From the NCBI GenBank assembly GCA_900473685.1, contig UCNE01000029.1, positions 1-64,000 on the forward strand: a stretch of DNA of 64,000 nt, written 5' to 3'. Made by a program: the position numbers and the translations under genes. The DNA is from Hyphomicrobiales bacterium. GTDB lineage: Bacteria; Pseudomonadota; Alphaproteobacteria; Rhizobiales; Rhizobiaceae. This document shows positions 31,442 through 33,630 of the stretch, in pieces; the first letter of the stretch is position 1; the number at the start of each line of letters is the position of its first letter. The notes beneath the pieces are model-generated. The model saw only the letters and a list, made by a program, of their open reading frames with translations, made no database searches and was not told where the DNA came from.

Positions 31442-31783
31442 ATGAACATCATGTCCTACAAGGGCTATGCAGCGCGGATCGATTACGATGCGGAGGACGA
31501 GATATTTTTCGGCCGGATCGCGGGCATTACCGGTGGCGTCGGGTTTCATGCCGATACCGTGGCGGATTTGAAAGCGGCATTCCACGAGTCTGTCGATGAT
31601 TACATCGAAACCTGCGCGAAGATCGGCAAGGATCCGCAAAAATCCTATTCCGGCAAGATGATGTTTCGCGTTGACCCGGATGTGCACGCCAAGGCCGCAA
31701 AGGCTGCCGAACTGTCGGGAAAGAGCCTCAATCAATGGGCAGCCGAAGTGCTGGCAAAGGCGGCTGGCGCAAAGTCGGCATAG
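31442..31783 (+). CDS. HicB-family protein, apparently without HicA
   Basis: This 113-residue protein has an N-terminal HicB-like fold (YKGYAARIDYDAEDEIFFGRI, GFHADTVADLKAAFHESVDDYIETC) and a C-terminal ribbon-helix-helix (GKMMFRVDPDVHAKAAKAAELSGKSLNQWAAEVLAKAA, in pieces). HicB is normally the antitoxin of the HicA RNase, but I find no HicA-sized double-stranded-RNA-binding-like ORF on either side. It follows the cytochrome by 4 bp, so translation may be coupled. It may be a free-standing regulator. Confidence 0.85.
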   Translation: MNIMSYKGYAARIDYDAEDEIFFGRIAGITGGVGFHADTVADLKAAFHESVDDYIETCAKIGKDPQKSYSGKMMFRVDPDVHAKAAKAAELSGKSLNQWAAEVLAKAAGAKSA

Positions 31784-31871: not shown

Positions 31872-32369
31872 TCAGGCGAGTGTCTGCAGATAGCGCATGC
31901 CGGTCACCGGACCGGGCGTGAAGTTTTCGGACTCATAGAAACGGTGCGCCTGGAAATTGCCGGTGGCGGCGCTGACCGAGAGATAGGTGGCGCCGGCCAT
32001 GCGGGCCTGTTCGCGGGCCTTGGCGACCAAATGGCGGCCGATGCCGGTGCCGCGATGGGCGGGGCGGACATAGAGATGGTGCAGTTCCATGCCGCGCGCA
32101 CCCTGCTGGGCGCGGTAGAGCGGCACGAGAATGGCGTAGCCGATCAGTTCGCCAGCGGCCTCGGCGACCAGCGCCGTGATCCAGGGCATGCGGCCGAACA
32201 GGTCGCGCTCGAGATTTTCCGGAGTGACGGCGGCAGCGTCGCCATGATGGGCGGCAAGCTCGCTAATCAGTGCGCGCAACTCGGCCAGGTCGCGCTGCTT
32301 GGCAGCACGGATGGTCACAATCGGCGCGCGCGTGGCGGGATGGAGTGTCGGGGTGGCGGTTTGCAGCAT
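31872..32369 (-). CDS. GNAT-family N-acetyltransferase
   Basis: This 165-residue acetyltransferase has IRAAKQRDLAELRALISELAAHHGD, strand LVAEAAGELIGYAILVPLY, the acetyl-CoA loop HHLYVRPAHRGTGIGRHLVAKA (R/Q-x-x-G-x-G/A type) and the closing NFQAHRFYESENFT. Its substrate is unknown. ATG 32369 has AAGGA 8 nt upstream. The 150-bp leader carries a promoter-like TTGACA, a 16-codon leader peptide and a terminator, indicating transcription attenuation by aromatic amino acid tRNA charging. An amino acid or related amine substrate is therefore attractive but unproven. Confidence 0.88.
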   Translation of the reverse strand: MLQTATPTLHPATRAPIVTIRAAKQRDLAELRALISELAAHHGDAAAVTPENLERDLFGRMPWITALVAEAAGELIGYAILVPLYRAQQGARGMELHHLYVRPAHRGTGIGRHLVAKAREQARMAGATYLSVSAATGNFQAHRFYESENFTPGPVTGMRYLQTLA

Positions 32370-32410
32370 TTCAAGGTTCCTTATGGCTTTTGCGCCATCA
32401 GGTGCCGTCC

Positions 32411-32514
32411 AAAAACAAAAGCCGCCTGATGGCGGCTTGTTGAACGAGATCAGACAGCCGCACCTATGGGAGCAGCGTAAAATACCAACGGGCGATGTTC
32501 GCGGTTCTGATCAT
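32411..32514 (-). promoter_or_regulatory. Putative ribosome-mediated attenuator with aromatic leader peptide upstream of GNAT gene
   Basis: On the minus strand a 16-codon frame (32514-32464) encodes MIRTANIARWYFTLLP, with Trp-Tyr-Phe in a row. It is followed by a terminator: AAGCCGCC (32438-32431), loop ATCA, GGCGGCTT (32426-32419), TTGTTTTT. GCGGCT (32461-32456) can pair with AGCCGC of the terminator's left arm (antiterminator). GATCAG+CCGC in the early codons can pair nested with GCGG+CTGATC (protector). TTGACA at 32549-32544 is well placed for a promoter firing at or near the leader ATG. These are all the parts of a classical attenuator. Confidence 0.72.
32464..32514 (-). CDS. Leader peptide of the GNAT attenuator (16 residues)
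   Basis: MIRTANIARWYFTLLP, ending in TAG. It has no ribosome binding site; if transcription starts at its ATG, as the TTGACA position allows, it would be a leaderless start like that reported for rhizobial trpL. The W-Y-F run would stall ribosomes when aromatic aminoacyl-tRNAs are scarce. Confidence 0.6.
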   Translation of the reverse strand: MIRTANIARWYFTLLP

Positions 32515-32745
32515 GGCGGGCAATGTCGCCTTTTCGAAAGAAATGTCAACGGGAATTGTCGAGCCTGTTAATTTTTGCGGCTGAAACAAGATTCTGAACG
32601 GCCATGTTTCCGGCCAAGACCGGCCACATTCGCTGCCTACGCATTATCCCCAGGGCGCAGCATATGATTGAGTTATGACTAATATTGTCGATTACGATCA
32701 AGGTGTTGCGCCATCAGCGCCGTTATCAAAGGGAGAACCCATCGC

Positions 32746-33630
32746 ATGTCGTTCACGTTCAATCGCCGGTCGTTCATCATCGGCTCCGGCCTGCTTCTGC
32801 CAAGCGTCGGTTTTGCGCCAAAGCTGGTCTTCGCCGCCGCCGATGACATCGAAAAGCAGCTGGCGGCGCTGGAAAAGCGCACCGGCGGCCGTCTCGGCGT
32901 CTATGTCCTCGATACGAAAACCAAGGTGACGTTCGCCCATCGGCCGGACGAGCGCTTTGCCATGTGCTCGACCTTCAAGGCGCTGGCGGCGGCTTTCGTG
33001 CTGGCGCGCGTCGACAAGGGCGAGGAAAAGCTCGACCGGCGGATTCCGATTTCGAAGAAGCACCTTCTGTCCTATTCACCAATTGTCGAAAAACATGTCG
33101 GCGGCGGTATGACGGTGGGTGAACTCTGCGCTGCCACCGTCACCTATAGCGACAATGCCGCCGGCAACCTGCTCCTGGCGAGTTTTGGTGGTCCGAAGGG
33201 ACTGACGGACTGGCTGCGCTCGATCGGCGACGAAACCACCCGCCTCGACCGCATCGAGCCGGAACTCAACGAAGCGAAAATCGGCGATCCGCGCGACACG
33301 ACGTCGCCGAAGGCAATGACGGAAACGCTCGGCAAGCTGCTCCTGGAAGACGTGCTTTCACCCGGATCGCGCGATCAGTTTTCTGCCTGGCTCGTCGCCA
33401 ATACGACCGGCGACCGGCGCCTGCGGGCAGGCCTTCCGAAAGGCTGGATCATTGGCGAAAAGACCGGCACCAGCGGCCGCGGCGAAGCCGGCGACATCGG
33501 CTTCATGCGTCCGTCCGAAGGCAATACGATCCTGGCGTCGGTCTATATTGCCGAAGGCAAGAAGAAGACCAAGGAGCTTGAACCGGTGTTTGCCGAGGTC
33601 GGCAAGCTGATCGCCGGGATGGTCGGGTAA
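32746..33630 (+). CDS. Class A beta-lactamase
   Basis: It encodes 294 residues. An N-terminal Tat-type signal (NRRSFIIGSGLLLPSVGF) directs export to the periplasm. The class A motifs are all present: S-x-x-K in CSTFK (catalytic Ser), SDN in TYSDN, the omega-loop EPELNEA (Glu166) and KTG in GEKTGTS. The cysteine just before the serine is a chromosomal class A feature also seen in some carbapenemases, but the spectrum cannot be inferred. No AmpR/PenR regulator is adjacent. Hydrolyses beta-lactams; likely intrinsic to the species. Confidence 0.92.
   Translation: MSFTFNRRSFIIGSGLLLPSVGFAPKLVFAAADDIEKQLAALEKRTGGRLGVYVLDTKTKVTFAHRPDERFAMCSTFKALAAAFVLARVDKGEEKLDRRIPISKKHLLSYSPIVEKHVGGGMTVGELCAATVTYSDNAAGNLLLASFGGPKGLTDWLRSIGDETTRLDRIEPELNEAKIGDPRDTTSPKAMTETLGKLLLEDVLSPGSRDQFSAWLVANTTGDRRLRAGLPKGWIIGEKTGTSGRGEAGDIGFMRPSEGNTILASVYIAEGKKKTKELEPVFAEVGKLIAGMVG

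Follow-up and report, generated by a model that had tools for sequence, protein, structure and literature searches.

The window examined here, a stretch of 64,000 nucleotides of contig UCNE01000029.1 (assembly GCA_900473685.1) from a Hyphomicrobiales bacterium of the Rhizobiaceae, carries on its minus strand a gene for a GNAT-family N-acetyltransferase preceded by a short leader (Table 1). The gene product scores well above the cut-off of PF00583 (Acetyltransf_1) and has the GNAT fold; the 24 NCBIfam equivalog families that it matched all stay below their cut-offs, and its closest solved relatives and folds, among the matches listed, are small-amine acetyltransferases. Divergent from the leader, at 32746-33630 on the plus strand, lies a gene for a class A beta-lactamase, over the NF033103 cut-off and below those of the named families shown, and a frame related to it occurs in three of 17 GNAT loci (L031, L048 and L070) in a coarse neighbourhood comparison. 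A HicB-family protein (PF05534) is encoded at 31442-31783 on the plus strand, convergent with the GNAT gene. The same comparison of 17 GNAT loci, swamped by shadow frames, gave no operon partner that could be named. The initial annotation of this DNA had described a leader frame with adjacent Trp-Tyr-Phe codons, an intrinsic terminator, the stretch GCGGCT, a TTGACA hexamer and the GNAT ATG, and a check of the sequence found every one of them in place. The terminator, AAGCCGCC-ATCA-GGCGGCTT, spans 32438-32419 and is followed by TTGTTTTT to 32411. The 131-nt leader folds better than 200 of 200 dinucleotide shuffles (z -3.14), and Rfam returned no match in the window at gathering score. The leader had been called a complete attenuator; the parts named are there, but the term understates it, as a further conserved segment at 32402-32393, perhaps a translational layer, had been overlooked.

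Table 1. Features of the GNAT leader and its gene in the window (positions are those of the window)
Feature	Position	Strand	Remark
Leader promoter, -35 hexamer TTGACA	32544..32549	-	35 nt from start of TTGACA to A of leader ATG
Leader ORF MIRTANIARWYFTLLP, 16 codons + TAG	32464..32514	-	ATG at 32514; stop codon ends at 32464
Sensor codons TGG TAT TTT (Trp-Tyr-Phe)	32479..32487	-	Codons 10-12
Long-range protector stem, 5' arm GATCAGA	32506..32512	-	At ORF start; covaries with 3' arm
Long-range protector stem, 3' arm TCTGATC	32448..32454	-	Covaries with 5' arm
Segment 1 CGCTGCTCC	32469..32477	-	Overlaps codons 13-16; pairs with segment 2
Segment 2 GGTGCGGCT	32456..32464	-	Pairs with segment 1 (protector) or segment 3 (antiterminator)
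GCGGCT within segment 2	32461-32456	-	Part pairing with segment 3 as antiterminator
Segment 3 AAGCCGCC	32431..32438	-	Terminator left arm, also antiterminator strand
Terminator loop ATCA	32427..32430	-	Complementary to segment 5; both change together
Segment 4 GGCGGCTT + U-run	32411..32426	-	Right side of intrinsic terminator
Segment 5 CCTGATGGCG	32393..32402	-	Just after U-run; complementary to CGCCATCAGG (32434-32425) and to the Shine-Dalgarno region
Segment 6 GCCATAAGGAA, with GNAT Shine-Dalgarno AAGGAA	32377..32387	-	Pairs with segment 5
GNAT-family N-acetyltransferase, 165 aa	31872..32369	-	ATG at 32369; proposed regulated gene

The leader is conserved before the GNAT gene. One scan of genome contigs supplied 80 GNAT loci (L031-L110), and the 80 sequences referred to below are the window and the 79 of these loci that bear a leader; L001-L030, of ambiguous orientation and mostly from the same species as L031-L110, were excluded from the alignments. 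A frame of 15-17 codons with Tyr-Phe and a neighbouring Trp lies upstream of the GNAT gene in 79 of the 80 loci, the sole exception being L110, whose GNAT is 42% identical. The aromatic residues run YFW in 53 of the 80 sequences, among them the S. meliloti locus L048 (strain 4H41), and WYF in 27; L185 has WFYY, and Trp is missing from L167. Tyr is encoded by TAT in 79 of 80 and Phe by TTT in all 80. The motif sits near the C-terminus of the leader peptide, between residues that vary. All 80 sequences have TTGAC beginning 34-36 nt ahead of the leader ATG, a spacing that fits a leaderless transcript with its predicted 5' end at or beside the ATG, as had been proposed from the TTGACA of the window. 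It had also been suggested that orthologous upstream regions be aligned: the W/Y/F frame and the stems are kept, and the stem at the start of the ORF covaries.

At the level of genomes, covariance model R1, run on 247 genomes of the family (Rhizobiaceae, to go by the named records), gave strong matches (E<=1e-9) in 57 places. A GNAT ortholog (protein search, E<=1e-30, on 247 genomes drawn likewise) is present in 55 of 247 genomes, and in 55 of 55 the element lies upstream on the same strand, with 38-145 nt between both matches. The R1 match is strong in 54 of these 55; it has an E of 0.0019 in G101, where the leader reads MIKRLPTLCWFYYANLP. The 192 genomes that have no GNAT ortholog gave no R1 match at E<=1e-9. 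A second strong match occurs in three of the 55 GNAT genomes, two of them before tyrS (L148 and L149) and the third at L150. The last is a Tyr-Tyr attenuator with no tyrS after it, perhaps a remnant. Of 63 weaker R1 places (E above 1e-9), 12 were read (L172-L181, L185 and L186); L185 is real and the other 11 looked like chance. The window genome has seven weak matches, of which the three that were read (L182-L184) are chance; another, on contig C15, is found a short way upstream of trpE.

Folding of the nascent RNA, ended at the terminator loop and with the ribosome footprint blocked, is consistent with transcription attenuation. With the ribosome stalled at the first aromatic codon, segments 2 and 3 pair (P>0.5) in 80 of 80 sequences, which bears out in the model the earlier proposal that GCGGCT pairs with the left arm of the terminator as an antiterminator; with the ribosome at the stop codon the pairing is found in 0 of 80, the footprint, which we set, covering segment 2 by construction. 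When the complete RNA is folded in the stalled state, the terminator is still mostly formed and the mean probability of 2:3 pairing is 0.17. The stem at the ORF start is supported by covariation: none of 500 shuffles reaches its paired cells, double-change cells or covariation score (5 of 500 reach its double-changed pairs, and 154 of 500 its pair types), and none of 5000 permutations reaches the observed value when sequences are scored one by one. The antiterminator (95.4% paired, one pair covarying U-A/C-G; 18 of 500 shuffles) and the terminator (100% paired cells in 29 sequences; 114 of 500 shuffles) do not go far beyond the shuffles. As for the protector proposed in the initial annotation, the GATCAGA:TCTGATC stem stands, but the element covering the antiterminator is better sought in a hairpin at the stop codon, between CGCTGCTCC (32477-32469) and GGTGCGGC (32464-32457). 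This hairpin is 86.6% paired and reached by 5 of 5000 permutations in per-sequence scoring; in fixed alignment columns it does not exceed the shuffles. By sequence and by modelled folding, the leader shows three of the traits that define a ribosome-mediated attenuator, namely a presumably translated leader ORF with sensor codons, an intrinsic terminator and an antiterminator that excludes it; read-through in response to charging of the cognate tRNA would be the fourth. The attenuator is real, and comparison among species supports its aromatic logic well; induction would follow from uncharged aromatic tRNA.

Segment 5 pairs with the left arm and loop of the terminator, gap-free over at least 8 bases, in 73 of the 80 sequences; among the other seven, the pairing is bulged in L077 and largely lost in L104 and L106. 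It is weak in L108. In 29 representatives this helix (loop:5) is 91.7% paired, with 13 double-change cells at four loop positions; versions slid along the sequence reach at most 52.8%. None of 500 shuffles attains its paired percentage, double-change cells or covariation score, 2 of 500 attain its double-changed pairs, and its pair types are not unusual (117 of 500). The match of segment 5 to the Shine-Dalgarno (SD) region, limited to the UTR and scored per sequence, is 18.5 against 15.6 permuted (0 of 5000). In fixed alignment columns the 5:SD helix does not beat the shuffles and it is seen only with a free register per sequence, because the register differs from species to species. In 25 of 28 sequences the accessibility of the SD lies under the mean obtained after shuffling segment 5, occlusion being absent in L070, L079 and L103; L106 has no recognised SD, hence SD counts out of 28 or 79. 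Thirty loci were also hand-picked for diversity of gene contexts, L200 and L201 being left out (L201 failed the terminator pattern) and L150 entered as tyrS, though no tyrS was found there. Across the 30, loop:5, the ORF-start stem and the match of segment 5 to a fixed stretch that holds the SD and can run into the coding region were each reached by 0 of 10,000 permutations; for the 16 loci outside the Rhizobiaceae-type GNAT the figures are 0 for loop:5 and 52 of 10,000 for the SD stretch, all of these counts being other than exact probabilities since related rows are not independent.

Our preferred reading, to which we give a probability of roughly 0.7, is that the attenuator governs the lone GNAT gene according to how well the tRNAs for Trp, Tyr and Phe are charged, in combination with a translational lock. 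RNA polymerase would start at the leader ATG, with a ribosome following. Where aromatic aminoacyl-tRNAs are plentiful, the ribosome would reach the stop codon and cover segment 2, so that the terminator (3:4) forms and transcription stops. Where any of the three tRNAs is short, it would stall at the W-Y-F codons and cover segment 1, so that segment 2 pairs with segment 3 and the polymerase reads through. The loop of the terminator, now opened, could then pair with segment 5 as it emerges and keep it off the SD, allowing translation of the GNAT. Behind a polymerase that passes a terminator already formed, the loop would be closed, segment 5 would fall onto the SD and the GNAT would stay untranslated.

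The folds of longer RNAs bear on the second half of this scheme. In RNA ended after segment 5, loop:5 pairing (P>0.5) is found in 78 of 80 sequences when 2:3 is enforced, but a ribosome placed at the stop codon also allows it, in 65 of 80; at equilibrium, therefore, loop:5 is not specific to the stalled state, which slightly lowers our confidence in the combined reading. In the complete RNA at equilibrium, even with 2:3 enforced, no more than 6 of 79 sequences have loop:5 above 0.5, and the SD remains occluded, its accessibility exceeding 0.5 in 3 of 79. A switch of segment 5 at equilibrium is unsupported by these figures on complete RNA. With the SD occluded at equilibrium, an ON state could arise only kinetically, and the model depends on timing: either the terminator has to form first, or segment 5 has to find its partner before the SD is transcribed. 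We regard a double lock on transcription and translation as a strong structural lead, in which the translational half, to which equilibrium folding lends no support, would follow from the pairing of segment 5. Three species of one genus (L164, L169 and L170) have a hairpin with no U-run directly after the stem (in L164, TTTT comes four bases on), the hairpin being extended by extra pairs in its place. Their loop:5 duplexes, with a bulge or mismatch in two, have energies of -17.7 to -20.0 kcal/mol (window, -19.9), and the 5:SD match is kept, which suggests from sequence that the translational half can stand alone. These loci may represent a natural conversion to translational control.

Other genes are preceded by the same element. 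Scans covered 249 genomes of the order with R1 and 397 with R2, as well as 385 genomes of the class with R2, and each new locus was read; L191, L193, L194, L203, L204, L206 and L215-L218 were judged to be chance. The element precedes tyrS in 10 loci, L148 and L149 included, with YY as the sensor in nine and VYF in L196, and all three tyrS products tested match TIGR00234 (tyrS) at E<1e-100. Two further loci, both YY, have a gene for a TyrA-like dehydrogenase, over the PDH_N cut-off and below those of the prephenate dehydrogenase models. One locus, L200, has WW before a class I synthetase of the W/Y type (PF00579), presumably trpS-like from its resemblance. The window genome's own tyrS has no aromatic leader frame upstream. 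S4-domain proteins follow the element in two loci (WYFT and YFT), the S4 match of L202 falling below cut-off. These small proteins of L201 and L202, similar to the C-terminus of TyrRS, are possibly stand-alone RNA-binding regulators. Five loci, in two other bacterial families, carry GNATs, all behind WYF. Orthology of these distant GNATs was considered and rejected: in a profile search none of the five was the top match of its genome, so it is more likely that different GNATs were recruited. Compared in this way, the parts of the leader are established together with their conservation and covariation, and the sensor codons are seen to follow the downstream gene, with Tyr before tyrS and the TyrA-like genes. 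As judged from sequence, the element is one family before GNAT, tyrS and TyrA-like genes in alphaproteobacteria, and the Tyr-codon copies support an independent tie of the RNA to aromatic amino acids. Of the link between the GNAT and aromatic amino acids made in the initial annotation, the regulatory side, as indicated by the leader codons and the tyrS and TyrA-like copies, holds up; a metabolic role of the enzyme remains presumed.

Several other explanations of the element have to be weighed. Genomes of this kind abound in short frames and GC hairpins, and many weak model matches looked like chance, so that a small frame and a terminator might have met by coincidence; this is refuted by conservation (frame in 79 of 80 loci, element in all 55 genomes that have the GNAT), and we put its probability at practically nil. 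Leader peptides of the erm and cat genes induce resistance genes by arrest, and GNATs are often resistance enzymes. The nascent GNAT leader peptide might likewise stall the ribosome on an antibiotic or metabolite, and both the aromatic motif near its C-terminus and the small-amine acetyltransferases nearest to the GNAT, among the solved structures listed, would suit such a role. We hold arrest to be quite improbable, because the residues permute in order (WYF, YFW, WFYY) between variable flanks, which fits codons over peptide shape, and because they track the gene downstream.

The remaining alternatives concern segment 5. It may be a mere SD-sequestering hairpin that sets a low basal translation, with no switch, the match to the loop having another cause. 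Occlusion of the SD at equilibrium, seen for the ribosome states tested, would agree with this, as would its lower accessibility relative to shuffled segment 5 in 25 of 28 sequences; yet four loop positions that the terminator leaves unpaired covary with segment 5, and the match recurs with different loops in the other bacterial families, which makes a static hairpin unlikely, if the least so of the alternatives. The leader could also be a plain transcription attenuator whose released RNA acts in trans, the terminator loop pairing with segment 5 of the GNAT mRNA. The two are complementary and covary, and rnTrpL of S. meliloti, which acts in trans on trpDC mRNA, offers a precedent, described in PMC7298713. 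However, the read-through mRNA carries the identical loop in cis and much closer, segment 5 covaries with the SD side too, and the duplex is kept in the three species with no U-run directly following the stem, from which release of the sRNA may be scant. Action in trans is improbable to us, and we retain the attenuator combined with a translational lock.

Enterobacterial pheA and pheST have leader attenuators with aromatic codons in the leader peptide, a terminator and an antiterminator. They resemble the GNAT leader in these parts; they respond to a single amino acid and serve different genes, and we know of no segment 5 in them. In the trp leader of B. subtilis, with TRAP, one signal controls both termination and SD accessibility. 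The likeness to the GNAT leader as proposed lies in the double control; TRAP control is protein-mediated and its RNA unrelated. Nearer by is the trpL/rnTrpL leader of rhizobial trpE(G), which has a small leaderless ORF that starts the transcript, as is predicted for the GNAT leader, and similarly has regulatory codons near its end, an ORF start that pairs with a segment after the stop codon, and a GCCGCC terminator. A leaderless start and attenuation are described for S. meliloti trpL in PMC7298713 and PMC10117765. It differs in its run of Trp codons and its biosynthetic target, whereas the GNAT leader has one Trp with Tyr and Phe and a GNAT target; on these two points, codon run and trpE target, the GNAT leader is no member of the trpL/rnTrpL family. 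Translational T-boxes with an SD-sequestering hairpin (ileS of Actinobacteria), as well as leader-peptide elements that lack obvious terminators, are reported in PMC1262725. Such T-boxes resemble the proposed GNAT leader in reading out tRNA charging as SD sequestration. A T-box binds the tRNA directly; in the GNAT leader the ribosome would sense charging, and a terminator is also present, its loop being the candidate anti-sequestor. Among the papers searched, titles and opening parts of abstracts name no GNAT, tyrS or tyrA attenuator in alphaproteobacteria, and the leader-peptide strings had no match; the survey of proteobacterial attenuators by Vitreschak et al. (2004) may mention one.

An uncharacterised acetyltransferase thereby gains a signal that can be tested, a shortage of charged Trp, Tyr or Phe tRNA, which is not evident from the protein itself. 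A single RNA device, fitted with different sensor codons, appears to have been reused before tyrS, before TyrA-like genes and before GNATs of more than one kind. Should segment 5 have its proposed role, the terminator's own loop would give an amino-acid attenuator control over translation, and read-through and leaky termination in alphaproteobacteria would be interpreted differently. A bolder and, as a whole, doubtful reading is of an undescribed alphaproteobacterial attenuator family that uses its hairpin twice, the stem terminating and the loop, opened by a stalled ribosome, freeing the ribosome-binding site, and in which different, apparently non-orthologous GNATs were recruited with the same Trp-Tyr-Phe sensor; these enzymes might inactivate natural amines that, by inhibiting the shikimate pathway or aromatic tRNA synthetases, would look to the cell like a lack of Trp, Tyr and Phe together.

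The window genome's own trpL encodes MTQARNIAIWWWAR; its loop:5 score of 15 equals the permuted mean, and its 5:SD score is 11. In the same trp leader (MTQARNIAIWWWAR; L220, 965 onward) the ORF start ATGAC pairs with GTCAT after the stop codon, so a stem that closes over the start codon may be general in rhizobial attenuators.
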